A DNA stretch of 64,000 nt from Diplonema papillatum (lineage: Eukaryota > Euglenozoa > Diplonemea > Diplonemida > Diplonemidae): contig JAPJBO010000061.1 in assembly GCA_030068145.1 (NCBI GenBank), forward strand, positions 1 to 64,000, read 5' to 3'. Position 1 is the first letter of the stretch. Every line of letters begins with the position of its first letter. Shown in pieces: positions 1 through 49,932 of this stretch. A program made the translations under genes and the position numbers. The notes below the pieces were generated by a model that was not told where the DNA came from, did not search any database, and was given only the letters and a program-made list of their open reading frames with translations.

Positions 1-3000
1 GATCCTCAACTGACTCGGTGTAGGGCTTCTCCCTGTTTTTGAGTTCAAGCATCAGGAACGGTTCTGACGCCGGCGATGCTCGTGAAGACTCTTTGCATAT
101 TGTGCACGTTGTCAAACGGGAGTATGTCACCGTAGCTTGGTCGTCGTCGTCGCCCGTCACGCAGGAGCGTATCCACGTCAGCAGTTCGTGCACGTCCCGA
201 TGCGCGGAGTCGTCTGCCGTCGTGTTGAACACGAGGCTCCGGAGTGTGGCCATTGTACCGTGGATGTTTTGGCCTGCGTCGAAATCCGTGAACAGCCTCT
301 GCACCATCTGCTGGTTGGTGTCCAGGTGCGTTAGGTTTGCGAGTTGTAGTCGGAAGGACGTCCTTCGCGCCAGGAACTGCACGCTGGCGGCGAAGAAACA
401 TGAGTTGCGAATGTTCGTTATGCCGTTGCGTCCAGGTGGGTTTGTTGGTTTCGTCGCAGGGTGCGTAGTGCTGGTGGGTTCGGATTTGTGCGGCGACGTA
501 GACTGCGGCGAGGTTCTCCCGGGTGGATGTTTCGGTGAGCCGTCGGGCGGTTGCGGCGTGCGGATGCTGATGTACGATTTTTCCTCGTTGGTCGGGCGAC
601 CTTCGTCATAGGCCTTTCCGACGAAGTGGTAAAACCGTGACAGCACTCGCGCATCTAATTCGTACTTTCCGTACGTTTGTGCCACGAACGTGTCGAACGT
701 GCGCCGGAGTTCCCGTCCAGAGAATCCTCGGTTCCGAAGTCTGTAGTACACCTTCATGACCTCGACCTTCAGGCTGGCATGTTGTTGCAGATGCGCGCTG
801 CTCGGATCAGTGCGCCTTTGAAGATCGAGGTTCCGGTGTTTCGTGGTACCGTGGATTCGACGTGGGTGTACTTTATCGGATTCCAGGGGAATTCCTCACC
901 CTTGTCCAGGACAGACATCCGAATGAAGTCCGTCTTGTCATTCCTCTCCATCCGGATCCGCATCCCCAAAAAGACTACGTCGTCGACACCTTTCGACGTT
1001 TCACCATACTCCATGCCGTAGATATCTTCCGGCGGTGGTCGAACACCCCAGGTCAGGAAGTCGTCAATGAATCTGACGCTGTCGGCGTGATTCCTGGCCT
1101 CTTCTTGCAATCCTTTCGCGACCAGGCCGTCGATGTACTGCTTTTCGCACCAGTAGCAGTATAAGTTGGCGAGGTCTGGGCTTGCATTGCCGCCCATGGG
1201 GATTCCGGATACCTGCTGGTAGCATGTTCCACCGTTGGTGACGAAGGTGTTACCAACAATGAAGCTGACCAGTGCTCGAATCTCTTCGACATTGTAGGAG
1301 GTCGTGTTCGATTCGTCTGGTTTCCCAAATTCGGCGGTGTTGGCGCGCTGGGCTTCTACGTTCGCTCCTTTTTCGGACTTCATGTACTCGAAAGCCTCTG
1401 CAACCGCAGACATAACATAGTCAACAATCTGCTTCTGCGGAATCTTCGTGTACATCTCTTTGAAGTCGAAGGTTCGTGGCGCTTTTTTGCGCAGTCGAGC
1501 GTAGTTCGTCTTTATGTGTACTGCTACGTCATCGACCGACTCCACGACGAAGAAACGACGTATCCCCGTTTGCAAAAACGTCGCTTCGTCCTTGCTTCGG
1601 AGCGTTGCTAGCACCAGCTTCAGCAAACCGGAGGCTTCTTGGTGTGCAGGGGTTGTGGATGCACGTGTCTTCATTCGTTTCTTGTCGCGGCCTTTTTCGT
1701 CTCGGTCCTTCTGTTCGTCTTTCTTCTCAACGTTTCCTTTCTCCGACACGCCGGCAATGTACCGCATCCGTGGTTCGGGTTTGTGGAGCTTCGGGATGCC
1801 GTAAAGGTACGGTAGGTTGTCGGTGTGTACGAACTTGTGTGACTTGTTGAAGTCACGGTGTCGTTCGAGCACGTCATCAATCGACTCGCCAACTTCCTGG
1901 TACGTTGAACTCTGTTGTAATTCGTCCCGTAAGAGCTCCTTGTATTTTTCCTTGCAGATAAACCCGAAGTCATGGGACGTCTTATCTACAGGGAGAAACA
2001 CGAGGTGCTCCTGGAGCTTCTTCAGGGTGCGTAAGGCGTCTCGGAGTTGAGGTTCGTCGGTGTGCGCGTTGAGAGTTCCAAGGACGGCGTCGAACTCTTC
2101 GACCAGAGTTGTTGAAAATCTGGTCTTCTCGTCCTCGCTCGCCTTCGGGAAATTCGAGTTCACGAATTCTTCGACGTCGTGTCTTATCGAGTCGTACATA
2201 GTCATCGGACTACTCGCGACCCGGTATTTTCGTCCTTTTCGAAAAAGTGAAAGGAGGGCTTCGTCAGTCTTCAGATCCGTTGCAAGTCCTAAAGCGTGTC
2301 CACCAAGATCCGGGCGGTGTGGTGTCATATGCTGCATGCATGGGCAAACCGAACCTGAGCTAGTCGGTTGATTCGCTTCGTAACTTACTTCGGTGACGTT
2401 GCTGACGAGGGTTACCAAAGGTGGCTTCAGGCGGTTGCTCACCATGAGGTTTTTGAGGACGGCCGGGTTGGGGCACGTTTCGCGAACCCGTGCGCGTGAC
2501 AGGACGCCGGCAATTGCTGTCCGGTCTTGTGCCGGGTGATGATGCGTCAGCTTGAAATACCGTCGTGGGGGGGCCGCCGGTTTCTCGGTTCTGTTGCGGA
2601 TGCGCGCACTGAGGAGTCGTTCAAGGATTCGTACTTTGTCTGTGACGTCTTTTCCTTGAACGAAGGTTCTCAGCCACGTGCGTAGGCGGAGGGCGCGATT
2701 GGGATGCCATGTTGACATGTCGTAGGTTCCCAGTCGGTCCTGTGGGAGTGTCAACAGGTGGTCCAACTGTTTCCTCAACCCAGAACAGAAGCCCGGGGAG
2801 GTGTCAATGTGGAGTTCGTCGTTTTCCATGCGGTGCCAGACGCTGCCGTCGGTGCGTCGTTTGCGGAGGCGTTGCGGTGGACGTTGCCTCCTCTTCTTCT
2901 TTGCAGCCTTGTTGTTGACCCTCTCTCCCTGTCGCCGATTCGTCATGTTCAATGGCGGGTTTAGCCATTTGATCCAAAACTCTTCGATTGGGAGAGCCAC

Positions 3001-4104
3001 GCGCGCGAAGTCAGCGGGCTGTGCGTACAGCCGTTCCGGAACATTCTGTATCGGACACGCGTAGAGCTTCCGGCCTCGCTTTCGTAATTGTTGCGATACA
3101 CGGTTGCCCTTTGAGTTCCGATTTTCCCAGTGCTTGCTGTTTCGCACCTCGGCCGTCTTCGACGTCTGACCCACGTAGAGGACGGTGCCCCCTTCGTTCA
3201 GAAGTACGTAGATCACTCCCGTCGTGTTGTCGGCGACGTCGCTTCGGTCGGTTCCGCATTTGTTCCGCCCATTCGACACTTTTGTGCCGTATCGCTTCCA
3301 GAAGATTTCGATCGCGCTTTTTCTTCGGCTTCCGTGATCGTCGTCGTCGTCGTCAGGGTGGCGGCGCGTGTGGACAAAAGCGGCGAGGAAACGAGTGTCA
3401 GATTTGGGCCGGTTTGTTTTTTGTTTTCGCCGTTCTTTTCTGTTGGCGCGTGCACTTTTATTGTTTTTTTGGTTTTTTTGGTTTTTTTCGTTTTGTTTTT
3501 TTGCCTCAGAGTCACGTGGTCGTTCTTCCGATTTTTCTTGGCGGCGTTTTCGTGCTTGTGCTCTGGGTTTTTCTTTTTGCGGCCTCTTTTGTTCGCGCTC
3601 CTTTTGTCGATCGTTGTGAACCGGGTGGCTAGTCGTTCCACGGTTCCTCTGTTCTGGGGCTGCTTGGGGTCTGGAAAGACCTTTCTCGCAGGGCTTCTTT
3701 GTTTTGGGGGCCGCTTGGGGTCTGGGGTGACCTTTGTCGCAGCGTTTCTCTTCCTTTCCCTCTCTCCGTGTCGCTGGGAAACGACCAACAAGTTCAGGTC
3801 CTTCCTGGGAGTGGCGCTGTCGGAAAATAAGGCATTCGTCATCTGTCCGAATCGGATATCCGACGACTACCTTAGCGTCTGTTCCGTCGAGTTCATCATC
3901 AAAGTAGTTAACTTTCATGTTATCGGACTCGGTGGTGGTAGACGACGCAGCACTCCGCCTCGAATGGTTGTGCTTCCTAGGCACTTTCAATGGCGATTTA
4001 GAGACGGGTGTGGGATTTTTTATTTTGGGTCTATCAACGTGTCGGGCTGACAGGTCCAAAAGCGGTCCTGCGGCGTTTTTTAGGGCCACACGGCAAGGGG
4101 CCAT
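1..4104 (-). pseudogene. GIY-YIG/RT/USP polyprotein, frameshifted copy
   Basis: The reading frame opens at 4104 and runs to 769, giving 1111 residues with the GIY-YIG, CxC and RT domains intact. Near 777 this copy is one base shorter than copy 2 (6617-6618). The shift ends the protein just after the RT thumb region, so the USP domain is out of frame. A second indel cluster at 1335-1350 totals 3 bp and only changes a few residues between RT motifs 3 and 4. The sequence from about 776 down to 1 still encodes the linker and part of the USP domain in another frame, then leaves the window. It is either a decayed copy or a cloning/assembly error; reads over 777 would decide. Confidence 0.85.
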
Positions 4105-4457
4105 CGTGTGGTTACAACATCCATGAGGTCGGTATCAGTTCGGGTCTCCGTCGTTGCCCGGGGTTCTGGTTTCCCTGGTCTTGCTGCACTGGTGTGGATG
4201 GCACCTGTGCTTTTCTGTACCCTTTTTAGTTGGGGTATTTTTGCTTAGAAAGGACCCTGGAGTTCGTCCGTTCGTCTTCTTCCTGTCAGTTGTGAATGGC
4301 TGCCCCGACAAGAGCCACTGACGGGGAGTTGGCTTGGGGCTCGCTCAAAGGTTGTTCTAAGCTGGGGGAAAAAGTGGGGCGCAGGAAGGTTGACAGCCTT
4401 CCTCTCTGACGCGGGGTTGCGGGGCGGGGGTAAAATAAAACTTTTACTTTGCATCGG

Positions 4458-4502
4458 GGCCGGTACCGTATGGCGCTCGAAAGTACTGTAGTGGTACCGG
4501 CC
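4458..4502. repeat. Strong hairpin in the 5' leader of PLE copy 1
   Basis: Ten-base arms (4458-4467 and 4493-4502, GGCCGGTACC and its complement) enclose a 25-base loop. An identical structure occurs in copy 2. It lies about 350-400 bases upstream of the start codon on the element's sense strand. I saw no hammerhead ribozyme core in the leader. Confidence 0.7.
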
Positions 4503-5442
4503 GCGGCCAACAAAGGGATGCGGGGTTTTGCTTCCGGCTATCAGTCCCTGTGCTGCAGAGAAGCTGGGACGTCACATTTTGCATCCGGTAGGCGGGACGG
4601 GGGTAGGCAGCTGAGTGCTTTGTTTTCCGTTTCGCCACCCGGAAGACTGTTCTTTGTTGGGAAATGAAGGAGGGAAGAGAATAACTGGCAATTGACCTTT
4701 TCCCGCGTAGACAACGCGGTCCTTTCCAAATCTCGCCTTGTTTTGGGAATTCGGAGGTGGGGTGTTGTCAGTTCGATGCTGTTTATTGGGCCGTTCTCCT
4801 GCCGGTGCTGCTTTACTGCAGTCGGCCAGAGTTTTCCTATCTTCGTAGGTTGTTGGGTATTCCCTTGTTTTTGGGGAACTGTTGTCTTCTCCATTGGAGA
4901 GCAGAGTAAGACCTGTGTCTTCAGAAGACCGGCATACTCCGTAGGGGGGAAAATCTTAGTTTCGTGTTCAGGCGCTACTTGCCTCTAAGTGTTTGATGCT
5001 AGCATCAAGTCTTCTTCGCGGAATGCAGAGTCTTTTTTCTTCTTTTTTTCTTTTTTTCCGTTTTCTGTTTTTTCTGTTCTTTCTTTCGTTGTCGCCAATT
5101 TCTTTTTTCTCCTTTTACTTCTAATTTTAACTTTAATTTTCTTTACCATGGTATTTTTGGACTTTCTGGTGCCGTAGAGTAGTTCTTCTTTCTCTATGCC
5201 GCCCACGTCGATGTTCGTTTAGCAGCGGCTGCCGAATCATGCCGTGGCACCGTCCTTTTGTGCGTCTGCCTTGCTGAAGAAGTGTGGGAAAGGAGTCCAG
5301 GACTCCGTGGTTTGAAACCATGTGCTATGGCTTCACTTCCTCCTCCCTTCGTCCGTTTTTCTTTAAAAAAAGGGGGTTTACAAATTGGGTTGTGGCTCGT
5401 AACCAACCGCCACGGGGCACTACTTCCACCAGGTGAAAGTGT

Positions 5443-8400
5443 TTACGCTTTCTCGAGAGAGATGACGTAGCCATTGGTTGTGAATCTCCTGGCACATTCC
5501 TCCCATGAGAGTACGGATACTTGCTGGTCGTCGTAGCATACCCATTCATCGTCTTCCTTTAACACGGTATAGTAATGACCTGCCGTTGCTCTTCCGGTGT
5601 GGATAATGAAGCCTTTTACCGTGTAGGAGTCTTCACCGATCAGTATGGTTTGTCGGATCGGGGTGCGGGCTGGTATTTTTATTTCTTCGCGTGTTTTTTT
5701 CGATAGCTGTGCTCGTTGCAGTAGTACATCCATTTGCTTTGGAAATGTGTAATCTTCCTTCGTGGATCCAACGGTCTTTTTGTTACAGGTGCTACAGGGG
5801 AAGTCGTCCACTTTGGTTGCTCTCTTGTTTTGCACTTTCTTTATCAGATCCTCAACTGACTCGGTGTAGGGCTTCTCCCTGTTTTTGAGTTCAAGCATCA
5901 GGAACGGTTCTGACGCCGGCGATGCTCGTGAAGACTCTTTGCATATTGTGCACGTTGTCAAACGGGAGTATGTCACCGTAGCTTGGTCGTCGTCGTCGCC
6001 CGTCACGCAGGAGCGTATCCACGTCAGCAGTTCGTGCACGTCCCGATGCGCGGAGTCGTCTGCCGTCGTGTTGAACACGAGGCTCCGGAGTGTGGCCATT
6101 GTACCGTGGATGTTTTGGCCTGCGTCGAAATCCGTGAACAGCCTCTGCACCATCTGCTGGTTGGTGTCCAGGTGCGTTAGGTTTGCGAGTTGTAGTCGGA
6201 AGGACGTCCTTCGCGCCAGGAACTGCACGCTGGCGGCGAAGAAACATGAGTTGCGAATGTTCGTTATGCCGTTGCGTCCAGGTGGGTTTGTTGGTTTCGT
6301 CGCAGGGTGCGTAGTGCTGGTGGGTTCGGATTTGTGCGGCGACGTAGACTGCGGCGAGGTTCTCCCGGGTGGATGTTTCGGTGAGCCGTCGGGCGGTTGC
6401 GGCGTGCGGATGCTGATGTACGATTTTTCCTCGTTGGTCGGGCGACCTTCGTCATAGGCCTTTCCGACGAAGTGGTAAAACCGTGACAGCACTCGCGCAT
6501 CTAATTCGTACTTTCCGTACGTTTGTGCCACGAACGTGTCGAACGTGCGCCGGAGTTCCCGTCCAGAGAATCCTCGGTTCCGAAGTCTGTAGTACACCTT
6601 CATGACCTCGACCTTCAGATCTGGCATGTTGTTGCAGATGCGCGCTGCTCGGATCAGTGCGCCTTTGAAGATCGAGGTTCCGGTGTTTCGTGGTACCGTG
6701 GATTCGACGTGGGTGTACTTTATCGGATTCCAGGGGAATTCCTCACCCTTGTCCAGGACAGACATCCGAATGAAGTCCGTCTTGTCATTCCTCTCCATCC
6801 GGATCCGCATCCCCAAAAAGACTACGTCGTCGACACCTTTCGACGTTTCACCATACTCCATGCCGTAGATATCTTCCGGCGGTGGTCGAACACCCCAGGT
6901 CAGGAAGTCGTCAATGAATCTGACGCTGTCGGCGTGATTCCTGGCCTCTTCTTGCAATCCTTTCGCGACCAGGCCGTCGATGTACTGCTTTTCGCACCAG
7001 TAGCAGTATAAGTTGGCGAGGTCTGGGCTTGCATTGCCGCCCATGGGGATTCCGGATACCTGCTGGTAGCATGTTCCACCGTTGGTGACGAAGGTGTTAC
7101 CAACAATGAAGCTGACCAGTGCTCGAATCTCTTCGACATTGTAGGAGGTCGTGTTCGATTCGTCTGGTTTCCCGAATTCGAAGCGGTGTTTGGCGCGCTG
7201 GGCTTCTACGTTCGCTCCTTTTTCGGACTTCATGTACTCGAAAGCCTCTGCAACCGCAGACATAACATAGTCAACAATCTGCTTCTGCGGAATCTTCGTG
7301 TACATCTCTTTGAAGTCGAAGGTTCGTGGCGCTTTTTTGCGCAGTCGAGCGTAGTTCGTCTTTATGTGTACTGCTACGTCATCGACCGACTCCACGACGA
7401 AGAAACGACGTATCCCCGTTTGCAAAAACGTCGCTTCGTCCTTGCTTCGGAGCGTTGCTAGCACCAGCTTCAGCAAACCGGAGGCTTCTTGGTGTGCAGG
7501 GGTTGTGGATGCACGTGTCTTCATTCGTTTCTTGTCGCGGCCTTTTTCGTCTCGGTCCTTCTGTTCGTCTTTCTTCTCAACGTTTCCTTTCTCCGACACG
7601 CCGGCAATGTACCGCATCCGTGGTTCGGGTTTGTGGAGCTTCGGGATGCCGTAAAGGTACGGTAGGTTGTCGGTGTGTACGAACTTGTGTGACTTGTTGA
7701 AGTCACGGTGTCGTTCGAGCACGTCATCAATCGACTCGCCAACTTCCTGGTACGTTGAACTCTGTTGTAATTCGTCCCGTAAGAGCTCCTTGTATTTTTC
7801 CTTGCAGATAAACCCGAAGTCATGGGACGTCTTATCTACAGGGAGAAACACGAGGTGCTCCTGGAGCTTCTTCAGGGTGCGTAAGGCGTCTCGGAGTTGA
7901 GGTTCGTCGGTGTGCGCGTTGAGAGTTCCAAGGACGGCGTCGAACTCTTCGACCAGAGTTGTTGAAAATCTGGTCTTCTCGTCCTCGCTCGCCTTCGGGA
8001 AATTCGAGTTCACGAATTCTTCGACGTCGTGTCTTATCGAGTCGTACATAGTCATCGGACTACTCGCGACCCGGTATTTTCGTCCTTTTCGAAAAAGTGA
8101 AAGGAGGGCTTCGTCAGTCTTCAGATCCGTTGCAAGTCCTAAAGCGTGTCCACCAAGATCCGGGCGGTGTGGTGTCATATGCTGCATGCATGGGCAAACC
8201 GAACCTGAGCTAGTCGGTTGATTCGCTTCGTAACTTACTTCGGTGACGTTGCTGACGAGGGTTACCAAAGGTGGCTTCAGGCGGTTGCTCACCATGAGGT
8301 TTTTGAGGACGGCCGGGTTGGGGCACGTTTCGCGAACCCGTGCGCGTGACAGGACGCCGGCAATTGCTGTCCGGTCTTGTGCCGGGTGATGATGCGTCAG

Positions 8401-9954
8401 CTTGAAATACCGTCGTGGGGGGGCCGCCGGTTTCTCGGTTCTGTTGCGGATGCGCGCACTGAGGAGTCGTTCAAGGATTCGTACTTTGTCTGTGACGTCT
8501 TTTCCTTGAACGAAGGTTCTCAGCCACGTGCGTAGGCGGAGGGCGCGATTGGGATGCCATGTTGACATGTCGTAGGTTCCCAGTCGGTCCTGTGGGAGTG
8601 TCAACAGGTGGTCCAACTGTTTCCTCAACCCAGAACAGAAGCCCGGGGAGGTGTCAATGTGGAGTTCGTCGTTTTCCATGCGGTGCCAGACGCTGCCGTC
8701 GGTGCGTCGTTTGCGGAGGCGTTGCGGTGGACGTTGCCTCCTCTTCTTCTTTGCAGCCTTGTTGTTGACCCTCTCTCCCTGTCGCCGATTCGTCATGTTC
8801 AATGGCGGGTTTAGCCATTTGATCCAAAACTCTTCGATTGGGAGAGCCACGCGCGCGAAGTCAGCGGGCTGTGCGTACAGCCGTTCCGGAACATTCTGTA
8901 TCGGACACGCGTAGAGCTTCCGGCCTCGCTTTCGTAATTGTTGCGATACACGGTTGCCCTTTGAGTTCCGATTTTCCCAGTGCTTGCTGTTTCGCACCTC
9001 GGCCGTCTTCGACGTCTGACCCACGTAGAGGACGGTGCCCCCTTCGTTCAGAAGTACGTAGATCACTCCCGTCGTGTTGTCGGCGACGTCGCTTCGGTCG
9101 GTTCCGCATTTGTTCCGCCCATTCGACACTTTTGTGCCGTATCGCTTCCAGAAGATTTCGATCGCGCTTTTTCTTCGGCTTCCGTGATCGTCGTCGTCGT
9201 CGTCAGGGTGGCGGCGCGTGTGGACAAAAGCGGCGAGGAAACGAGTGTCAGATTTGGGCCGGTTTGTTTTTTGTTTTCGCCGTTCTTTTCTGTTGGCGCG
9301 TGCACTTTTATTGTTTTTTTGGTTTTTTTGGTTTTTTTCGTTTTGTTTTTTTGCCTCAGAGTCACGTGGTCGTTCTTCCGATTTTTCTTGGCGGCGTTTT
9401 CGTGCTTGTGCTCTGGGTTTTTCTTTTTGCGGCCTCTTTTGTTCGCGCTCCTTTTGTCGATCGTTGTGAACCGGGTGGCTAGTCGTTCCACGGTTCCTCT
9501 GTTCTGGGGCTGCTTGGGGTCTGGAAAGACCTTTCTCGCAGGGCTTCTTTGTTTTGGGGGCCGCTTGGGGTCTGGGGTGACCTTTGTCGCAGCGTTTCTC
9601 TTCCTTTCCCTCTCTCCGTGTCGCTGGGAAACGACCAACAAGTTCAGGTCCTTCCTGGGAGTGGCGCTGTCGGAAAATAAGGCATTCGTCATCTGTCCGA
9701 ATCGGATATCCGACGACTACCTTAGCGTCTGTTCCGTCGAGTTCATCATCAAAGTAGTTAACTTTCATGTTATCGGACTCGGTGGTGGTAGACGACGCAG
9801 CACTCCGCCTCGAATGGTTATGCTTCCTAGGCACTTTCAATGGCGATTTAGAGACGGGTGTGGGATTTTTTATTTTGGGTCTATCAACGTGTCGGGCTGA
9901 CAGGTCCAAAAGCGGTCCTGCGGCGTTTTTTAGGGCCACACGGCAAGGGGCCAT
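5443..9954 (-). CDS. GIY-YIG - reverse transcriptase - ubiquitin-specific protease fusion
   Basis: An intact 1503-residue protein. Residues 1-290 are basic, low complexity and Lys/Arg/Gln-rich, with a poly-Asp stretch. Residues 296-390 form a GIY-YIG nuclease domain: GVIYVL then LYVGQT, with a likely catalytic Glu in PIEEFW (373-378). The Cys/His zinc site of animal Penelope nucleases is not evident. A CxC motif (VCPCMQH, C587/C589) follows. RT motifs are YLYGIPKLHKP (766-776), TFDFKEMYTKIP (878-889), GIPMGGNASPDLANLY (968-983) and RFIDDFLTW (1012-1020, catalytic DD 1015-1016). A Pro/Thr/Ser-rich linker (1180-1228) leads to a USP-type deubiquitinase (1228-1503): Cys box NGITNIRNSCFF (C1237), CxxC pairs at 1335/1338 and 1387/1390 as in the USP zinc finger, and His box GHYYTVL (H1460) with CYDDQQV (D1475/D1476). 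The catalytic residues look complete. The family match is strong; the role of the protease, perhaps sparing the RT from ubiquitin-dependent degradation, is inference. Confidence 0.93.
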   Translation of the reverse strand: MAPCRVALKNAAGPLLDLSARHVDRPKIKNPTPVSKSPLKVPRKHNHSRRSAASSTTTESDNMKVNYFDDELDGTDAKVVVGYPIRTDDECLIFRQRHSQEGPELVGRFPATRREGKEEKRCDKGHPRPQAAPKTKKPCEKGLSRPQAAPEQRNRGTTSHPVHNDRQKEREQKRPQKEKPRAQARKRRQEKSEERPRDSEAKKQNEKNQKNQKNNKSARANRKERRKQKTNRPKSDTRFLAAFVHTRRHPDDDDDDHGSRRKSAIEIFWKRYGTKVSNGRNKCGTDRSDVADNTTGVIYVLLNEGGTVLYVGQTSKTAEVRNSKHWENRNSKGNRVSQQLRKRGRKLYACPIQNVPERLYAQPADFARVALPIEEFWIKWLNPPLNMTNRRQGERVNNKAAKKKRRQRPPQRLRKRRTDGSVWHRMENDELHIDTSPGFCSGLRKQLDHLLTLPQDRLGTYDMSTWHPNRALRLRTWLRTFVQGKDVTDKVRILERLLSARIRNRTEKPAAPPRRYFKLTHHHPAQDRTAIAGVLSRARVRETCPNPAVLKNLMVSNRLKPPLVTLVSNVTEVSYEANQPTSSGSVCPCMQHMTPHRPDLGGHALGLATDLKTDEALLSLFRKGRKYRVASSPMTMYDSIRHDVEEFVNSNFPKASEDEKTRFSTTLVEEFDAVLGTLNAHTDEPQLRDALRTLKKLQEHLVFLPVDKTSHDFGFICKEKYKELLRDELQQSSTYQEVGESIDDVLERHRDFNKSHKFVHTDNLPYLYGIPKLHKPEPRMRYIAGVSEKGNVEKKDEQKDRDEKGRDKKRMKTRASTTPAHQEASGLLKLVLATLRSKDEATFLQTGIRRFFVVESVDDVAVHIKTNYARLRKKAPRTFDFKEMYTKIPQKQIVDYVMSAVAEAFEYMKSEKGANVEAQRAKHRFEFGKPDESNTTSYNVEEIRALVSFIVGNTFVTNGGTCYQQVSGIPMGGNASPDLANLYCYWCEKQYIDGLVAKGLQEEARNHADSVRFIDDFLTWGVRPPPEDIYGMEYGETSKGVDDVVFLGMRIRMERNDKTDFIRMSVLDKGEEFPWNPIKYTHVESTVPRNTGTSIFKGALIRAARICNNMPDLKVEVMKVYYRLRNRGFSGRELRRTFDTFVAQTYGKYELDARVLSRFYHFVGKAYDEGRPTNEEKSYISIRTPQPPDGSPKHPPGRTSPQSTSPHKSEPTSTTHPATKPTNPPGRNGITNIRNSCFFAASVQFLARRTSFRLQLANLTHLDTNQQMVQRLFTDFDAGQNIHGTMATLRSLVFNTTADDSAHRDVHELLTWIRSCVTGDDDDQATVTYSRLTTCTICKESSRASPASEPFLMLELKNREKPYTESVEDLIKKVQNKRATKVDDFPCSTCNKKTVGSTKEDYTFPKQMDVLLQRAQLSKKTREEIKIPARTPIRQTILIGEDSYTVKGFIIHTGRATAGHYYTVLKEDDEWVCYDDQQVSVLSWEECARRFTTNGYVISLEKA

Positions 9955-10307
9955 CGTGTGGTTACAACATCCATGAGGTCGGTATCAGTTCGGGTCTCCG
10001 TCGTTGCCCGGGGTTCTGGTTTCCCTGGTCTTGCTGCACTGGTGTGGATGGCACCTGTGCTTTTCTGTACCCTTTTTAGTTGGGGTATTTTTGCTTAGAA
10101 AGGACCCTGGAGTTCGTCCGTTCGTCTTCTTCCTGTCAGTTGTGAATGGCTGCCCCGACAAGAGCCACTGACGGGGAGTTGGCTTGGGGCTCGCTCAAAG
10201 GTTGTTCTAAGCTGGGGGAAAAAGTGGGGCGCAGGAAGGTTGACAGCCTTCCTCTCTGACGCGGGGTTGCGGGGCGGGGGTAAAATAAAACTTTTACTTT
10301 GCATCGG

Positions 10308-10352
10308 GGCCGGTACCGTATGGCGCTCGAAAGTACTGTAGTGGTACCGGCC
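10308..10352. repeat. Strong hairpin in the 5' leader of PLE copy 2
   Basis: Same ten-base arms as at 4458-4502, here at 10308-10317 and 10343-10352. Conservation in both copies fits recent duplication and says nothing on its own about function. Confidence 0.7.
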
Positions 10353-10782
10353 GCGGCCAACAAAGGGATGCGGGGTTTTGCTTCCGGCTATCAGTCCCTG
10401 TGCTGCAGAGAAGCTGGGACGTCACATTTTGCATCCGGTAGGCGGGACGGGGGTAGGCAGCTGAGTGCTTTGTTTTCCGTTTCGCCACCCGGAAGACTGT
10501 TCTTTGTTGGGAAATGAAGGAGGGAAGAGAATAACTGGCAATTGACCTTTTCCCGCGTAGACAACGCGGTCCTTTCCAAATCTCGCCTTGTTTTGGGAAT
10601 TCGGAGGTGGGGTGTTGTCAGTTCGATGCTGTTTATTGGGCCGTTCTCCTGCCGGTGCTGCTTTACTGCAGTCGGCCAGAGTTTTCCTATCTTCGTAGGT
10701 TGTTGGGTATTCCCTTGTTTTTGGGGAACTGTTGTCTTCTCCATTGGAGAGCAGAGTAAGACCTACATCCGGGGGGGGGGGA

Positions 10783-10975
10783 ACAATACAACTACAAAGT
10801 GGGTCTTGTTGTTGAACGCTTACGCCCGCCACTAAACCCCAATAAAAACAAACAAAAAAAACGCCCGCCACTAAACCCAGATTTACCTGTGTTTCGTGTG
10901 GGCTACAGCACATTTACCTCCTTTGATCTACCGCCACTGGCAGTCTCCTCAAGCATTTCCTACAAAGCGGGTGCA
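10783..10975. repeat. Dispersed repeat, copy 1 (second copy 36566-36865)
   Basis: Shared blocks with 36566-36865 include an AACAATACAACTACAAAG block, an ACGCTTACGCCCGCCACT block (10817-10834, partly repeated at 10859-10875) and a GTGTGGGCTACAGCACATTT block near 10900. Fragments also occur reverse-complemented near 12440 and 12950. No coding potential seen. It starts at the G-run that borders the Penelope-like element. Confidence 0.6.
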
Positions 10976-11025
10976 GGACCACCTTGATGGGGGACCAGTC
11001 GTAGGTCAACCGCCATTCCGCACGA

Positions 11026-13250: not shown

Positions 13251-13518
13251 TTGGGTGGCTTAATCTTGTTTTTTCCGGCATTCTGGTGGGACGTGCAGAT
13301 TGCTGTATTTCGACCTTTTCTTTCTTTTTTTGTGCTTCCGGACGAAGTGTGCGCAAGTGTCAGACTAATCCATTCGAAGTTGATTTATTGGGGCAAGTTT
13401 TCTCAGCCGGCGTAAGTTGTTTGGGTTCGTTCGCGTTCCTCTCGAGCCCTGTTTGTGTGGCGGAATCTTGGTTTTCCGGCAGTCTGGTGGTACGTTCAGA
13501 TTGCTGCCTTTTGACCTT

Positions 13519-14244
13519 GTAGACTCTTGGTTTTTTCTTGAGGGGTCCGCTGTAGACTCGTGGTTTTTTCTTGAGGGGTCCGCTGTAGACTCGTGGTTTT
13601 TTCTTGAGGGGTCCGCTGTAGACTCGTGGTTTTTTCTTGAGGGGTCCGCTGTAGACTCGTGGTTTTTTCTTGAGGGGTCCGCTGTAGACTCGTGGTTTTT
13701 TCTTGAGGGGTCCGCTGTAGACTCGTGGTTTTTTCTTGAGGGGTCCGCTGTAGACTCGTGGTTTTTTCTTGAGGGGTCCGCTGTAGACTCGTGGTTTTTT
13801 CTTGAGGGGTCCGCTGTAGACTCGTGGTTTTTTCTTGAGGGGTCCGCTGTAGACTCGTGGTTTTTTCTTGAGGGGTCCGCTGTAGACTCGTGGTTTTTTC
13901 TTGAGGGGTCCGCTGTAGACTCGTGGTTTTTTCTTGAGGGGTCCGCTGTAGACTCGTGGTTTTTTCTTGAGGGGTCCGCTGTAGACTCGTGGTTTTTTCT
14001 TGAGGGGTCCGCTGTAGACTCGTGGTTTTTTCTTGAGGGGTCCGCTGTAGACTCGTGGTTTTTTCTTGAGGGGTCCGCTGTAGACTCGTGGTTTTTTCTT
14101 GAGGGGTCCGCTGTAGACTCGTGGTTTTTTCTTGAGGGGTCCGCTGTAGACTCGTGGCTTTTTCTTGAGGGGTCCGCTGTAGACTCGTGGTTTTTTCTTG
14201 AGGGGTCCGCTGTAGACTCGTGGTTTTTTCTTGAGGGGTCCGCT
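13519..14244. repeat. 33-bp minisatellite, 22 copies
   Basis: 726 bp is exactly 22 units of 33 bp, nearly identical (one T/G change in the first unit and one T/C change near 14158). Because 33 is a multiple of three, frames stay open on both strands: plus encodes VDSWFFLEGSA repeats, minus encodes ADPSRKNHEST or LQRTPQEKTTS repeats. It lies in intron 1 of the TPR gene. I read it as non-coding, because no start, splice site or neighbouring domain supports translation. Confidence 0.95.
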
Positions 14245-14486
14245 GGACCCCGTTGGACCCTCCTATAGGATAAATCGTCGTGTTTGTGTGCACCAGCGGA
14301 ACTCACCTGCTTTGGTAAGTTTCATGTAGTACGCCGTCAACTAAAGGGGTTGGTCGAATAATAACAGTTATTTGACATACGTCTGGTTGCCTAAAAACAC
14401 TACCACGACTTGATCCTGCTACTGTTCGGTACCCGGAACTCGACAAATCGAATAATAACACAGGTGTTACTATTCGACCCGGAGCA

Positions 14487-15714: not shown

Positions 15715-16013
15715 TATCTCGGGGGGAAAATGTTTCTTGGGTTTGAAGAGCGCGTGGTGCTTGCACCACTGAGGCCAGGTTATTTAACCGCGGATTTAGT
15801 GAAGGATCGTTCAGGAAACGGTCGCGAGCGAAACCCGACCAGGTAACGACCATATCACTGTCTTCTTTGTTTTGTGATGCGAACATCACGAGGTGCTGTC
15901 CGAAGACCGCCCACGTGAGCACTGTTAAGCATTGAGTTCTTTTAAGTACATGAACCACATGGATTAGCATGCACTACTGTTAAGCAGCGGTTGCCAGATA
16001 CTCCCGTAGCACC
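15715..16013. repeat. Dispersed repeat blocks shared with 48140-48200 and 49613-49703
   Basis: Block one (about 15722-15780, AAGAGCGCGTGGTGCTTGCA) matches 48144-48200. Block two (15923-16013, with CATGAACCACATGGATTAGC) matches 49615-49703. The minus-strand frame through block one is fortuitous. Confidence 0.6.
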
Positions 16014-19203: not shown

Positions 19204-19708
19204 ATCTCCTAGAGCAAGAAAGGGCTATATGGTTACGGGTTGTATATTTGTTCTTTGACGTGTCGTGCAGGCAAAAGACTAAGGCGATGTGTTTTGACAG
19301 TGATCAGAACTTCTTCAACAGAAAACATGGCAACTGTCTCTGTCATGCTATATAGGTAAGGCAACTACCCAAAATTGAAGCATGAACAGCCCGGAAAACT
19401 GGAAAGCAGATCACACTCAGATTGAAACCGAAACAAAAAAAAAAAAGAAAAAAAAGACTCTAGAAATGAAATGGAAGCGCTTCCTTCGCCTGCCCAGGCA
19501 GGGCCAAGCAGGGCTTGTGAAGGAAACGCGGATGTTCCCTTCGTTTTGCTTTTCCAAAATATATGCCGGGGAAGGGGGAGGCAAAAAAGAAGGTGCGTGG
19601 AAGTTTGAATGGGATATAGGCAAGAAGTGTGCAGACAGTCGCATCCCTGTCAAAGAAAATGGGGGGGAACAGACACTCAGGCCAACACACACGTTCTGTA
19701 CAGACGTA

Positions 19709-19709
19709 C

Positions 19710-19756
<47 letters not shown>
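19709..19756. repeat. (AC)n tract at the 5' junction of a LINE fragment
   Basis: About 24 AC units immediately precede the LINE reading frame. A second AC tract follows its 3' end at 21571. Confidence 0.95.
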
Positions 19757-19757
<1 letters not shown>

Positions 19758-21511
19758 CGGTGGAACACCTGTTTTGGGAATGCCCCGCCTGGGAGACAAT
19801 ACGCTCAAAGTACGGGGAGCTAAGAACCGTGCAACACAGGTGGCCGCCATGCTTACGGTTGTGCGGGGTGGCTCCCGCTTTCCACGACCCGAATCTCTTA
19901 CCCACCGAACAGGGAAAGAGGCTTCAGCTGCTTGAGAAACTGCACTTTTACTTCGTGGAGGTGCTGTCTGCACGTCAAGGGGCAGATGACATGCTGGACA
20001 GGTCTACACGGCACCACCGAACGCTTGAGTATCCGCGACGATGGAAACCAGCAGAACCACACAAACTGGCTGTGCCGGACGTTGCGCCTTCGGCAGTACT
20101 CACCCAGTGGAAGTACGGCCCGGAGATGTGGATGGCGTTCACGGATTGGCTGAGGGAATTGAAATGGGCGCCGCCGGGGCACGAACTCGGGGTAAGCTTT
20201 GTGGAGTTGGCGGTGGACTTCGAGTTGCGCACCGGACGCCGCCTCCCAACGCTCAAAAGTAGATACTACACGGCGGTGCCACAACACACGAAGAAGGCCA
20301 CAACAGCACGACAGACTCTGCCAGAAGACGCCGCAGCTAGTTGCGATGTTGCAATCTACTTTGACGGAGGAGCGAGGGCCAACGGGACTGCCTTTGCCGT
20401 GGCGGGCGCAGGAGCGGTACTGTACAAGGAGGGCGTCAAGTACGCACAAATAGTGCTCCCGCTGCCAAACGTGCGCAGTAACAACGTGGCCGAGTACGAG
20501 GGATTTCTCGCGGGGCTGCAGCTCCTGGAGGATGCTGAAGGAACGGAAGGAGCGCAGTGTGTAATTCGCGGAGACTCGGCGCTGGTAGTCGGGCAAACCA
20601 CGCGGCAATTGGCGTGTTCAGAAGACTTGAAGCCATTGCTGACGCGAGCGGTGGCAAAAATAGTGGCCCTGCGACAGCGGCTTTCCCTGCGGGTAGAACA
20701 CGTGAAGCGCGAGCAAAACACCGATGCGGATGCTCTGAGCAACGCGGCAATGGACCTCGTGCAAGGCCAACGACCAACGCGGGAGCAGCAGGAAGCGGAG
20801 CTGCAGTCCTTCCGTGCCTCCGCACTCGGAAAAGCGATGAGCCTAATTGAGTTAGGCTCAGCATTCAAGAAGGTAACTGGACGACAGTGGTTCAGTGGCC
20901 ACGAAGCAACAACAACGATCTTAACTGCCGTCGGAGGATCAGTTGTAAGGGGAGCGTCGCGGCGGGCGCAACTTTCGGATGAGACGGACGAGGTGATCCT
21001 AGGCATACGGGAACATGTGCAGAAGATGGGCACAGCGCAGGCGGAGACCAACTTGTACCCGCAGCACCTGACGTGGGCGGCAACCTATCTGCCGGAGAAA
21101 GCCTACCCTGCAGGATGGGAACAAGGAAAGACTAACTGGAAACAGAGAGTGGAGATGGTAGAGAGAGTAACAGGCGCTGGACCTCGCAGAGGGTCACCAC
21201 CCAAGAAGGCACCGGAAGACGCGGTGAACACATCCCGCCCTGGAGAAATATGTGTGCAACACCGGAAACCACGCTGCAAGGACTGTACAAAGAAGCGTTT
21301 GCCGGCGGAAACCTGTTGCCGGTTCAAACAGCACCACCGTGAGGGGGACGGCCTGCGACCACGAATGCTCTTCTGCCCTGCCCACAGATTGGGACGCTGC
21401 GGTGATTGCACAGCGGGCGGCCTGGAGATCGTGCATTGCTGCCAAAGGCATCACCCACAGAAAAACACAGACCCCCACGCACAGCCTGGGGGAGCATCTG
21501 CAGTAACGTGA
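19757..21511 (+). pseudogene. LINE polyprotein C-terminal part: zinc finger, RNase H, Cys/His tail
   Basis: The open frame nominally begins at 19382, but everything before 19757 is unrelated sequence plus the AC tract. It begins with TVEHLFWECPAW, half of the finger seen in the full LINE (EDEQHMWWDCVKW). RNase H follows: YFDGGARANG, NNVAEYEGF, RGDSALVVG and DADALSNAAMD supply the acidic residues. The end carries two copies of a module C-x2-H-x4-C-x2-C-x8-CC-x3/x2-HH (CVQHRKPRCKDC, then FCPAHRLGRCGDC), which the intact LINE at 41806-47580 lacks. So it is a related but distinct family. The C-terminus is intact; RT, nuclease and any N-terminal protease are missing. Confidence 0.85.
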
Positions 21512-25988: not shown

Positions 25989-28900
25989 TCACACCAGCGG
26001 CTGGCGAGCTGCATGCGGAAACCCCTGACTCGACCGACTGCACGTGTCACGACACCAGCGGTAGGCGTCGTAGAGCAGACCGACGATCCAAGGGTCATTC
26101 CGAACACGCAACTTCGCGTACGAAGGCTGGCAGCACATCTGCTCGGCTAACTTGGCCAGGACGACGGGGCCGGTGGCGGTCAGTGTGATGATCCCCGATT
26201 TCCACCAGAAGTCGCCGCCGGAGGTGACGTACTGCAGGTCGAGAGACGCGATGAAGAAGAAGCTGATGACGTACGACGCGAGGGTGGCCACCTCCGCGAG
26301 GGCGAAGAGGAAGCTGATCTTATGCATTTCGAACCAGATGGTGATGAGCTCGGTGAGGATCAGTGCTGTGAACGTGATGGTCACGATGCGGAGGAACGAC
26401 CGGTCGAAAAAGTAGATCGCCAGCAGCATGATCGCAGCGCCTTGGTAGATGGCTTTGAAGACCCACTGCAAGAACGTCCGGAGCGACAGGGCCCTCGCCT
26501 TTTGGAGCTCCCGGTAGAGCTCAGGGAACTCATCCGCCGCTGATTCGTCGACGTCCTCGTCGAGGACTATCGCGAAGACGGGACACATCGTGTACACAGT
26601 CGAATAGCCGACCAGCAGCCAGCCGGTGTAGATCGGGACGGCCATGAAGTAGAAGATCGCTGAAAAAATCGCTTGGATGAAGGAAATGATCAACCCGCGG
26701 TGGATCACGAACTGGCCGAGGCGGGCGGACCGTTTATACGAGTTCCGGCCGTGCCAGTTGAGGAGGCGGACGCAGTGGCAGAACTTTGTGAGGGAGTAGT
26801 CGGCTGCCAGAGACGCGTGGCGACCTTCTTTTCCCTCGATGCCAAGGCCGACGTGTGCGGCGAGGATCATCGACACGTCGTTGCCGCCGTCGCCGATGGC
26901 CGCCGTGCGGATCTTCGCGGTCGCGGTGTGCCGCTTCATCACGTCGACGACGTCGGCCTTCTGCGTAGGAGAGCATCTAGCGACCACGACACTCGACGCT
27001 CGCGCTGCCGCGCTCACGAACTCCTCCGTCTTCAGCAAGTGCACCAACGAGGCGCCGTCCACCACCAGGGTGATCCCCCCCATCTTCGCCCCGGAGTCAA
27101 CGAACCGGTTGAACGAGCACAACAGGTCCAGCGCGTCCTCTTCCCCAGCCACCTGCCGGCCAGGCGCCCAGCCTGGGGTTCCATCGGGGCGGTCCCAGAG
27201 GTACTCGTATCGGGGGCCGGTGCAGTCCTGGGGGAAGATCGCGCCGTCGCGGGCAGCGAGCCTGGTGGACCGGGCGATGCACACTGCGGTCTCGACCTTG
27301 TCGCCAGTGAGCATCCAGAGCTTGACGCCCATCTTCCGCAGGTGCTCCAGGCTCTTCGCAACGTCGTCCTGCAGCTTGTCCTCGACGCCGGTCACGGCGA
27401 CCAAATCAAGGTCCTTCTCGATGCGGGCCCGCACCTGCTCCACGGCGGCCTTCGGGTCGCGGCTCCGCATCGCCTCCTTATGCGCCGCTTCGAACTCCGC
27501 GAATTCCGCCTCGCTCAGCGTTTTCGACCCGAAAACCAGCGTCCGCAGCCCTTCGCGGGCGAGGTTGAGGCACTCCTCGTCGAGCCACGCTGTTTTCTTC
27601 ACGATTTCCGCCATCTTCGTGTCGGCGCCCTTCATCAGAAGCGAGACTTTCTTCGTGTCCGCTGCGCGCACGACGATCCCCATCCGCTTCGACTCCGACG
27701 TGAACGGGAACTCGAGCAGAATTTCGAGCTCGATCCGGCGCTCAACGGTCAGGTCGACGGCGTCGTCGAGGGGGGCGTCCGGCCGGTGGGGGGGCGGGGT
27801 TTCGACGCAGTTGGTGCCGTACTGTAGGGTTTCTGGGGTGGAGGGGGTGCCTGCGGCGTCGTGGGGGCGGGTGTCTGGGGCGGCGGCGCGCGCGACGATG
27901 TCGGCGACGGAGTCCTGTGTTCCGATGGGCGCTCCGCGCACCGCGGAGAGATACCAGCCCTTGTGCTCTCCGGCGACGAACGCGACGCCGGTCGCTGTCT
28001 TTTGGAGGTCGCCCGCCGCCGGCTTCGGCACGCGGACCGACTTGGCGGCGGCGCCGAGCGCCATGCGGCTGCGGTCGCGGTACTGCAGGGTGAGCCCGGA
28101 GGCTTCGCAGAACTGCACGAGCGCAACCTCGTCGGGGGACGAGGCTTGGTACACCTTTTGCTGCGTTTCGGAATCGACGACGGGAGTCACGTTGTGCGCT
28201 GCGGCGAGCGCGAAAAACGCCGCCAGCAAGTCATCAACCTGCTTCTCCGACGTCGCCCGGGTGAAGTCACACATCCGCCGGTCGCTGTCCAGGTCGCTGT
28301 CCGTCCGACTCCTCTTACTCTGCAACCCCCCCGCCGCATGCCGGCTCGTGACGATCTCCCGCATGTCCTCCGCATCGGCGTGCGTCCACCCCTTCGGCAC
28401 GTTCTCCCCCGTGAACAGCTTTTTGAACACCATGTCGTTCTTCGTCAGCGTCCCGGTTTTGTCCGAAAAAAGATATCCGATCCGTCCGAGCTCCTCAGGC
28501 AGGTTGCTGTTCCGGACGACGACACCCGGTAAATTTTTGTTGTCGCGCATGATGAACCAGGAGTACACGGCCTTCGCGATGTCGAGGTTGACGCGCAGGG
28601 AAATCGGGATGATCGACGAGAAGAGGATGACGAACCGGTTGAAGGAGATGTACCACGCGCCGTGGAATTCTTGGAAGATGATCATGATCAGCGCGAGGAC
28701 GAGGGTGAGGACGAAGAGCAGCTTCGACATGAAGTTGAGCTCGAGGTCAAGGAGCCCGATTTTCGACGTGGGGGTGTTCGCGTTCAACGACGCGCGGGTC
28801 TCGCGGCCGGTGTATATCACGCAGACCAACGCTTCACCGGTGGCCAGCACGCAGTTCGCCCAAAGCGTGTTTTCGAGGGTCAAGGGGTCCCCCTCCTGGA

Positions 28901-29711
28901 ACGACTCCCCCGACCGGAACGCCTTCCCGACGAAGTCGTAGATCCGGTCGTGCGGCTTCTGCGCCCACACCGACGCGCCGAGGCTCGGCACCGCTGCGAA
29001 CGGCTCCTTCTGCGTGAACCCCACAGGGATGCGGAGCTTCCAATCCGTCTCGCCGTCGAGCTGGTCGGTGCGAACAAAGGACCCGTCTTTCTCCGTCGTC
29101 TTCAGCAGGATGCAGTCAGCCGGCACGCGTTTATTCGGCTTCAGCTTGAGGAGCATCCCCACTTTGATGTCCTTGCTCGGGATCTTCTTCCACGTCCCCG
29201 CCGGTGTGTACGCCTCGTACTTTTCGCTGTTCGCCTCCCTGTCTTGCAGGAAGCGCTGGAAATCGTCGTACGACTCTTTGAACAGAGCGACTGCGACCAC
29301 GAATGCGAGCGGGGCGATGTATGTGAACAGGAACCCGACCTGAAGAGGGGGGAAAAACTGCGAGATGGCGACGACGAGGAAGTACATGTTGAAGAAGTAC
29401 TTGAACTGCTCGTAGAGGGACAGCGGGAGGAAGGAGAGGGTCGAATACTTCTGGTTGCGCACGATGTTCGGCGGGAAGCTGTGGTCGTGCGGCGCGGGGC
29501 CTACCAGCAGCAGCCGCTCCTGCATGGGCGCGCGGGAGGCGAGGCCGACGGCGACCAGCGCCGGTCGGATCGGCTCCCACCAAGGCTTGCCCGCCTCCTC
29601 CTGCTGGTGCGTGTAGTCGGGCGGCCCGCTCAGCCCGCTCAGCGACCGGTGCGTGACGCGGTCGTTCATCGGCGTCAGCGCCACGGCGTCGGACAACTCC
29701 CCTGACGACAT
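25989..29711 (-). CDS. P4-type ATPase (phospholipid flippase), Neo1/ATP9-like
   Basis: An uninterrupted frame of 1240 codons from ATG at 29711. P4 flippases move aminophospholipids to the cytosolic leaflet; the Neo1/ATP9 branch works in the Golgi/endosome system. Signatures: N-terminal NQKYSTLSFLPLSLYEQFKY (residues 86-105), LDGET (218-222), PISLRVNLD in TM4 (369-377, the Neo1/ATP9 form), phosphorylation site DKTGTLTKND (D417), LMKGAD, and GDGGNDVSMI in the hinge. About ten membrane spans are visible. The end, QPSYAKLRVRN, aligns with the last residues of ATP9 proteins; the following 40 residues read into sequence shared by the tandem 3' copies, so the true stop or a short last intron is uncertain. 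Length fits the family. Neo1/ATP9 members do not need a CDC50 partner. Confidence 0.92.
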   Translation of the reverse strand: MSSGELSDAVALTPMNDRVTHRSLSGLSGPPDYTHQQEEAGKPWWEPIRPALVAVGLASRAPMQERLLLVGPAPHDHSFPPNIVRNQKYSTLSFLPLSLYEQFKYFFNMYFLVVAISQFFPPLQVGFLFTYIAPLAFVVAVALFKESYDDFQRFLQDREANSEKYEAYTPAGTWKKIPSKDIKVGMLLKLKPNKRVPADCILLKTTEKDGSFVRTDQLDGETDWKLRIPVGFTQKEPFAAVPSLGASVWAQKPHDRIYDFVGKAFRSGESFQEGDPLTLENTLWANCVLATGEALVCVIYTGRETRASLNANTPTSKIGLLDLELNFMSKLLFVLTLVLALIMIIFQEFHGAWYISFNRFVILFSSIIPISLRVNLDIAKAVYSWFIMRDNKNLPGVVVRNSNLPEELGRIGYLFSDKTGTLTKNDMVFKKLFTGENVPKGWTHADAEDMREIVTSRHAAGGLQSKRSRTDSDLDSDRRMCDFTRATSEKQVDDLLAAFFALAAAHNVTPVVDSETQQKVYQASSPDEVALVQFCEASGLTLQYRDRSRMALGAAAKSVRVPKPAAGDLQKTATGVAFVAGEHKGWYLSAVRGAPIGTQDSVADIVARAAAPDTRPHDAAGTPSTPETLQYGTNCVETPPPHRPDAPLDDAVDLTVERRIELEILLEFPFTSESKRMGIVVRAADTKKVSLLMKGADTKMAEIVKKTAWLDEECLNLAREGLRTLVFGSKTLSEAEFAEFEAAHKEAMRSRDPKAAVEQVRARIEKDLDLVAVTGVEDKLQDDVAKSLEHLRKMGVKLWMLTGDKVETAVCIARSTRLAARDGAIFPQDCTGPRYEYLWDRPDGTPGWAPGRQVAGEEDALDLLCSFNRFVDSGAKMGGITLVVDGASLVHLLKTEEFVSAAARASSVVVARCSPTQKADVVDVMKRHTATAKIRTAAIGDGGNDVSMILAAHVGLGIEGKEGRHASLAADYSLTKFCHCVRLLNWHGRNSYKRSARLGQFVIHRGLIISFIQAIFSAIFYFMAVPIYTGWLLVGYSTVYTMCPVFAIVLDEDVDESAADEFPELYRELQKARALSLRTFLQWVFKAIYQGAAIMLLAIYFFDRSFLRIVTITFTALILTELITIWFEMHKISFLFALAEVATLASYVISFFFIASLDLQYVTSGGDFWWKSGIITLTATGPVVLAKLAEQMCCQPSYAKLRVRNDPWIVGLLYDAYRWCRDTCSRSSQGFPHAARQPLV

Positions 29712-49530: not shown

Positions 49531-49932
49531 TTGAGCATTGAGTTCTTTAAGGTGCAAGTGCCATCAAGGCAGGCAAGTTGAGCAGGTAATCTCAGGGCCG
49601 CCCACGTGATAAGCCGTTAAGCATTGAGTTCTTTTAAGTACATGAACCACATGGATTAGCATGCACCGTTAAGCAGCGGCTGCCGGCTTATCCCGTGACA
49701 CCTTTTGTAGTACGTTATAGAAAGAGTAGCGTTGGCACTCTTACAGGTTCGTTCCCTCTTAGATCGCCGGGAACGGGCACTCCAGTGAAACTGGGTATGT
49801 TACCGTTTCAGGTTTGGATTTTGGGAGCATTGCCTCATATGAATTCTGAGACCTGGGTATTTCGGCACACCAGCTGCAAAATTGAAGATTTTGCAACGGA
49901 GCCATCAAAGAGAAGCTCGAAAATACTCGACA

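Follow-up and report, generated by a model that had tools for sequence, protein, structure and literature searches.

Penelope-like retroelements of the Chlamys/Naiad group reportedly place a GIY-YIG endonuclease domain before the reverse transcriptase (RT), with a CxC motif between the two, and are said to carry pseudo-long terminal repeats (pseudo-LTRs), to occur in tandem, to insert near simple repeats and to lack a hammerhead ribozyme. The GIY-YIG domain nicks DNA and the RT copies RNA at the nick. To our knowledge, the described members end at the RT, and their hosts are said to comprise green algae, spike mosses, slime moulds and invertebrates. Here we analyze an element from the diplonemid Diplonema papillatum, located in a 64,000-nucleotide stretch (contig JAPJBO010000061.1, positions 1 to 64,000; hereafter, the window), whose protein continues past the RT into a predicted ubiquitin-specific protease (USP). 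We consider it moderately probable that this is a Penelope-like retroelement with the N-terminal endonuclease (EN) order, its single protein extended by a USP-class deubiquitinase that guards its own RT protein.

Compared with Chlamys/Naiad elements, the window element presents the same EN-CxC-RT order, pseudo-LTRs, tandem copies and no hammerhead match. It departs from them in that its frame, like those of its relatives, does not end at the RT and runs on into a USP or OTU domain, with a C2H2 finger after it in four related families (B to E), and in that its host, a member of the Euglenozoa, lies beyond the host range given above. Since the GIY-YIG, CxC and RT order is retained but a USP lies past the RT, we file the element as a variant of the N-terminal-EN Penelope-like elements and not as a standard member. 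Among other retroelements, long interspersed elements (LINEs) of the Dualen/RandI type carry an OTU cysteine protease and hence also combine a retroelement with a deubiquitinase-type domain, but LINEs have another RT class and endonuclease, and the OTU domain is N-terminal in the LINE found in the window. This LINE (41806-47580, minus strand) encodes a 1924-residue open reading frame (ORF) with an N-terminal OTU domain (E=3.7e-9), an APE-type endonuclease, RT and RNase H, and two retroelement classes in the window thus bear a deubiquitinase; OTU frames of 1876-2130 residues were numerous among the matches listed (at least 150), the window LINE being the one read. Cellular USPs, such as USP12/46 and USP15, share the Cys, His and Asp boxes and the CxxC pairs with the element domain, which, unlike them, is joined to a retroelement RT and is short (~275 residues).

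Deubiquitinase or Ulp1 domains joined to mobility proteins are described for Ginger1, Helitrons/Helentrons, Mutator and a Trichomonas transposase (PMC6431247, PMC2836005). The transposases of Ginger1 DNA transposons end in OTU or Ulp1 domains that vary by family (Bao et al. 2010; PMC2836005), and thus resemble the element protein in joining a C-terminal protease to a mobility enzyme, with the protease type differing among families. Ginger1 is, however, a DNA transposon with an integrase-like transposase and no RT, and its protease is an OTU or SUMO protease rather than a USP. Helentrons with OTU (PMC6431247) likewise bear a deubiquitinase-type domain on the mobility protein, and in Trichomonas transposase_11 proteins with Peptidase C19 (PMC2836005) that domain is of the USP class, but these are rolling-circle or insertion-sequence (IS)-type DNA transposons and not retroelements. 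No deubiquitinase in a Penelope-like element was found in the literature searched, whose reach did not extend to Craig et al. 2021, the reported source of the Chlamys/Naiad description. Within that reach, the original prediction that no Penelope-like element with a deubiquitinase is known stands; its conditional claim of a new retroelement architecture would then apply to Penelope-like elements, deubiquitinase and Ulp1 fusions being published for other transposons. If our assignment is right, Penelope-like elements extend to a diplonemid; the D. papillatum genome paper (PMC10161547) lists LINE-1, SLACS, R2 and jockey-like proteins, and the words 'Penelope' and 'ubiquitin' are absent from its main text.

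Domain order and predicted catalytic residues

A single frame of 1503 residues plus stop fills positions 5443-9954 of the window, exactly as first predicted, and the analysis adds that it lies on the minus strand (Table 1). Pfam searches placed the GIY-YIG domain before the RT, as the N-terminal-EN Penelope-like order requires, and by eye no CCHH motif was seen within it. The CPC motif was unchanged in all six rows of alignment A1. Reading the RT motifs by eye, we predict D880 and the FIDD at 1013-1016 as catalytic residues; a variable, charged stretch, which may or may not correspond to the insertion-in-fingers domain (IFD) of Chlamys/Naiad RTs, separates the RT motifs MRYIAG and FDF. The order first proposed, GIY-YIG followed by CxC and RT, was therefore recovered, with RVT_1 below its cut-off.

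The Pfam UCH profile matched the window protein at E=3e-15 (57 bits against a cut-off of 23.9), spanning profile positions 2-251 of 254, and matched the USP part searched alone at E=2.3e-16. The best PDB match of the single USP sequence was USP15 (phmmer, E=1.4e-8), and the best matches of the USP family profile were USP46 and USP12 (USP46, E=4e-22). Besides the predicted triad, the domain contains N1232 (position -5 of the Cys box), D1305/H1307/E1308, D1476 and CxxC pairs at 1335-1338 and 1387-1390. C1237, H1460, D1475 and N1232 were unchanged in 7/7 rows of alignment A2, which covers families A and B, family A being that of the window copy. The partial frames L038-L041 entered the alignments in part: A2 lacks L038-L040, A1 lacks the RT of L038, L039 and L041, and one further alignment lacks L040. 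The domain is thus predicted, by profile and catalytic residues, to belong to the USP / peptidase C19 class. The complete USP expected from its Cys, His and Asp boxes and two CxxC pairs was confirmed at the level of profiles, with highly significant matches in the Pfam, PDB phmmer and family-profile searches.

Several results weigh against this reading of the protein. The RVT_1 match in the window protein is weak (E=0.043, residues 874-1018) and below the Pfam cut-off; family C also falls short of that cut-off, and families B, D and E have no RVT_1 entry in the Pfam results. Searched against the PDB, the RT profile gave 0 matches at E<=1. Prediction of the USP structure from a single sequence with AlphaFold2 returned a predicted local distance difference test (pLDDT) score of 37, which is uninformative on the fold, and this proposed check hence speaks for neither side. 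NCBIfam added to the Pfam results on the window protein a weak group II RT match (E=0.001), far under its cut-off.

Table 1. Features of the element in the window (EN, endonuclease; res, residues)
Feature	Position	Strand	Basis or remarks
Single element ORF	5443..9954	-	basic N-terminus, then GIY-YIG, CPC, RT, linker, USP
GIY-YIG endonuclease domain, res 296-383	8806..9069	-	Pfam PF01541 E=7.7e-6, above cut-off; own-genome search
CPC (CxC) motif, res 587-589, between EN and RT	8188..8196	-	sequence, alignment A1
CxC + RT region, res 560-1175	6430..8277	-	stretch taken for profiles and dN/dS
USP domain (predicted), res 1229-1497	5464..6270	-	Pfam PF00443, PDB phmmer, family profile
Predicted catalytic Cys codon, C1237 (NIRNSCFF box, Asn at -5)	6244..6246	-	sequence, alignment A2
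Predicted catalytic His codon, H1460 (AGHYYTV box)	5575..5577	-	sequence, alignment A2
Predicted catalytic Asp codon, D1475 (CYDDQQV)	5530..5532	-	sequence, alignment A2
Element copy 2	4940..10764	-	3' end joined to copy 1
3' pseudo-LTR of copy 2, ~436 bp	4940..5376	-	starts CCCCCTTTTTTT, ends GATTTTCCCCCC
Tandem copy 1, head to tail with copy 2, truncated by contig end	1..4914	-	ORF parts 769-4104 and 2-757

Copies, related families and sequence constraint

Searches of the D. papillatum genome covered 271 Mb in 2910 contigs. With the whole protein as query, 31 places were scored out of 9,556 candidates, the two window copies included. The USP end (residue 1502 or 1503) was reached in 28 of these, and 15/31, among them the window copy, were full length without a stop; the other three break off within the USP at residue 1461 (C17), where the contig ends (C1753) and at the frameshift of copy 1. 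Residues 1-145 of the USP query are nonetheless found, with 100% identity, in the second frame of copy 1 (2-757), in line with the earlier claim that this copy carries part of the USP. None of the 31 ended cleanly after the RT. A search with the USP region alone returned 140 matches, 137 of them without a stop within the matched stretch, and subfamilies at 92% and 73-75% identity likewise encode the USP. Among loci with frames of at least 150 residues, all 27 of family A, window copy included, retain the Cys and D[AV]HE boxes, and 25 of them also the His and Asp boxes (exceptions, L018 and L020); the six of family B (L036-L041) retain all four.

Ratios of non-synonymous to synonymous substitution (dN/dS) were obtained by the Nei-Gojobori method for seven pairs, which are not independent, three of them lying within family B. 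Taken in the same order of pairs, dN/dS was 0.244, 0.115, 0.116, 0.096, 0.206, 0.140 and 0.163 for the USP; 0.108, 0.075, 0.066, 0.062, 0.157, 0.062 and 0.291 for the RT; and 0.342, 0.181, 0.506, 0.284, 0.332, 0.523 and 0.411 for the pre-USP linker. The USP value was lower than that of the linker in every pair, and on these ratios the USP looks to be under constraint. Weighing against this, dN/dS is higher for the USP than for the RT in 6/7 pairs, several dS values exceed 1 and are hence rough, and the copy numbers given above may count assembly duplicates.

A single copy might recently have captured a host USP and carried it as a passenger after a chance fusion; many host-like USP matches occur in this genome, and retroelements are known to transduce host DNA (PMC6431247). 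We regard this origin as extremely improbable, given that the USP is present in families at 92%, 73-75% and ~30% identity, that it appears constrained and that no clean RT-only copy was seen among the 31 scored. Chance fusion was rejected on the copies that reach the USP end (28/31), the low USP dN/dS and the USP-region matches, and the original prediction that the USP is a property of the element was upheld, as was the expectation of further copies with RT and USP in one frame, found also in families B and C. Eight host USP loci were compared with the window protein by blastp, and L031 alone gave a match at E<=1e-5 (23% identity over 179 residues).

When the genome was searched for the UCH profile, 149 of 935 candidates were scored as matches, and these comprised host-like USPs of up to 206 bits and many near-identical matches at 76-86 bits, often in frames of 1562 or 1585 residues. 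Fetching from the latter yielded family B (L036, L037 and partial relatives), with the order GIY-YIG, CPC, RT and USP, 29-30% identity to the window protein over 1337-1384 residues, a USP above the UCH cut-off and, at the C-terminus, a C2H2 finger that is complete in L037 and cut by the fetched edge in L036. The 127 matches of a GIY-YIG profile search revealed additional frames. Family C (L042, 2210 residues) has GIY-YIG, CAC, RT, a USP that likewise exceeds the UCH cut-off (E=5.8e-14) and C2H2 fingers; both B and C are only ~30% identical to the window protein. Two C-like subfamilies with ~62% RT identity also bear a USP (L047, E=5.4e-11; L048, E=2.9e-12). In families D (L043) and E (L044), which are 49% identical to each other, GIY-YIG, CPC and RT are followed by an OTU domain and then by a C2H2 finger. 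The OTU profile PF02338 matched family D at E=2e-5 (25.5 bits against a cut-off of 23.3; Cys box GDGNC) and family E at E=1e-8 (36.2 bits against the same cut-off). The RT call in families B, D and E is made because they are homologous to the window protein, and not from Pfam. A predicted deubiquitinase was accordingly read in each Penelope-like family representative whose C-terminus was read, a survey that left out short GIY-YIG frames (e.g. C121, C1026), possible GIY-YIG-less elements and unfetched rows. Outside this genome, the RT profile gave 93 pattern matches in viral contigs and the RT protein 24 in genome contigs, with 0 confirmed in either.

The occurrence of OTU downstream of D/E-type RTs was compared using 36 hand-picked rows of 106 RT rows and 23 hand-picked rows of at least 150 OTU rows. 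Among the matches listed, an OTU match lay 133-444 bp downstream in 16/36, and none was present for the remaining 20 (8 of family D and 12 at ~64% identity); family-D OTU scores fall under the lowest of the OTU matches listed. A tree of EN plus RT (9 rows) sets the OTU pair D/E apart by a 100/100 branch and makes family C its nearest relative (92/91), subject to a long-branch warning, and one exchange between USP and OTU, in either direction, would be enough for this tree. The USP tree, also with long branches, splits 8 element rows from 8 host rows with support of 87/89, which is suggestive, but not decisive, of a single origin of the element USPs. Further results count against our favored reading. 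The best USP tree separates families A and B (A and B together are not rejected, p-AU 0.12), the GIY-YIG scores of family B straddle the cut-off of 22.6 bits (22.9 and 22.4), the USP Cys box of family C has, by eye, a Thr at -5, and the OTU box of family E reads GNGNC and not GDGNC, so that activity may differ in these two families.

Candidate roles of the deubiquitinase

We find the exchange of USP and OTU the most surprising part of these results. Ubiquitin and ubiquitin-like proteins are recognised by USP and OTU enzymes in their folded form, and replacement of one fold by the other argues for a common activity over a fold-specific contact. This bears on whether the domain is an inactive ubiquitin reader that tethers the protein to, for instance, ubiquitinated chromatin or ribonucleoprotein. 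Such a reader would accommodate the loss of the Cys-box Asn at -5 in family C, and catalytic activity is here a prediction from sequence; we nonetheless hold it to be improbable, as Cys, His and Asp are kept in families A and B and the OTU substitute preserves the activity class and not a binding surface. More improbable still is that the domain processes the element's own polyprotein in the manner of a retroviral protease. Its C-terminal location and its cysteine-protease class would suit that role, but a folded ubiquitin or ubiquitin-like domain of the kind that USP and OTU recognise does not appear in the element protein in Pfam searches up to E=1.

In the mechanism we favor, the element protein would bind its own RNA, the GIY-YIG domain would nick a C-rich target and cDNA would be made by target-primed reverse transcription. 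The deubiquitinase would act in cis on the ribonucleoprotein, stripping the ubiquitin added by host E3 ligases to the element RT protein and thereby sparing it from proteasomal removal. Self-protection is supported by analogy, because the human L1 ORF2p is ubiquitinated by TRIM41 and then degraded (PMC10716122). The step from deubiquitinase to self-protection is the least certain, and we would place it at about an even chance, the competing possibility being action on target-site chromatin or repair proteins. It also counts against self-protection that the substrate of the USP might be a ubiquitin-like protein, or might lie among host proteins reached in trans.

Under the latter alternative, what the deubiquitinase acts on in trans would be the chromatin or the DNA-repair proteins of the host where the element inserts, for example ubiquitinated H2A/H2B or PCNA. 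Nicking, synthesis of the second strand or repair would thereby become easier. The USP profile matched USP46 and USP12 best in the PDB, two enzymes whose targets include histones, and the C2H2 finger C-terminal to the deubiquitinase in families B-E could bring it to DNA. A DNA-repair role was also proposed for the OTU and Ulp1 domains of transposases by Bao et al. 2010 (PMC2836005). The match to USP46 and USP12 may, on the other hand, reflect general USP similarity, and families D and E have an OTU of a different fold in its place, which gives no hint of a single, fixed substrate among the histones. We judge action in trans to be somewhat unlikely.

A broader reading, which we offer tentatively and with more doubt than belief, is that in this lineage the deubiquitinase is an essential, exchangeable module of retrotransposition, present as USP or OTU in Penelope-like elements and, independently, as OTU in LINEs. 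The host would ubiquitinate retroelement proteins and element classes would converge on its removal, in an arms race carried inside the polymerase. If so, a whole Penelope-like radiation would need deubiquitination to move, and the module would be replaceable by an unrelated fold. Involvement of the ubiquitin pathway in transposition has been suggested (PMC2836005), and this suggestion would become testable by one point mutation. The earlier proposal that control of ubiquitin matters to the element is strengthened by the apparent USP constraint and by OTU in its place, and it retains the status of an inference.

Element ends, insertion sites and the surrounding window

Comparison of eight loci identified a repeat of ~436 bp at both element ends as the pseudo-LTR; together with the strand, the other families and the OTU-bearing relatives, it extends the original prediction. 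Copy 1 is placed 5850 bp on from copy 2, in the element's sense, and is 99.86% identical to it over 4918 columns, with a frameshift near 770. Rfam searches of window 4000-11000 up to E=5 gave no match, hammerhead ribozyme included. Six bases separate the 5' end of copy 2 from a run of 11 C. Insertion sites were examined by blastn at six distinct sites with a resolved 5' pseudo-LTR start meeting host flank, L003 and L006 counting as one. Four of them fall within a run of 10-11 C, a fifth shows no more than 5 C and the sixth is a G run; with so few sites a C-rich bias is suggestive, and the element itself begins with five C, so five C of the runs may be its own. The pseudo-LTRs and tandems fit the described picture of N-terminal-EN Penelope-like elements, and the C-rich sites may fit it too. 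Certain copies are 100% identical at the protein level, which points to recent activity, with a possible contribution from assembly duplicates.

A motif of ~45 nt, CATGCTAATCCATGTGGTTCATGTACTTAAAAGAACTCAATGC, was found whole or in part at L001, L014, L015, L019, L020 and L022, just before the spliced leader (SL) in L045, and in the window at 49621-49663 and 15929-15971 (minus strand). In most loci its context reads GGCAGCCGCTGCT(A/T)AAC...ACGTGGGCGG, and it was not found in the window's pseudo-LTR. The 18-base SL core occurs 635 times in the genome (reversed control, 0), and at two loci the leader reads ACCAACGATTTAAAAGCTACAGTTTCTGTACTTTATTG, in agreement with the diplonemid spliced leader. 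In L045 and L046, near position 1480, the SL exon is followed by GC and not by the splice-donor GT, which suggests that both are retrocopies of trans-spliced mRNAs and not SL RNA genes. The genome paper reports a ~280 Mb assembly with 52% repeats, a 39-nt leader, 110 SL RNA genes and ~3600 scattered 28S pieces, and also that gene replacement has been achieved in D. papillatum (PMC10161547); 635 leader matches against 110 SL RNA genes would fit retrocopies. Eukaryotic large-subunit (LSU) rRNA is present in the window in two separate pieces (48427-48801, minus strand, and 53444-53553, plus strand), which fit the scattered 28S pieces of that report.

Elsewhere in the window, a 33-bp minisatellite at 13496-14293 has an open frame encoding a repeated DPSRKNHESTA-type peptide. 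A 709-residue ORF at 19382-21511 (plus strand) contains, by eye, an RNase H-like stretch (FDGGARANGTAFAVAGAGAVL) and is perhaps a truncated LINE. A 707-residue ORF at 31056-33179 (minus strand) had no Pfam match up to E=0.1, and an uninterrupted ORF of 1240 residues at 25989-29711 (minus strand) was identified by Pfam as a phospholipid-translocating P4-ATPase.

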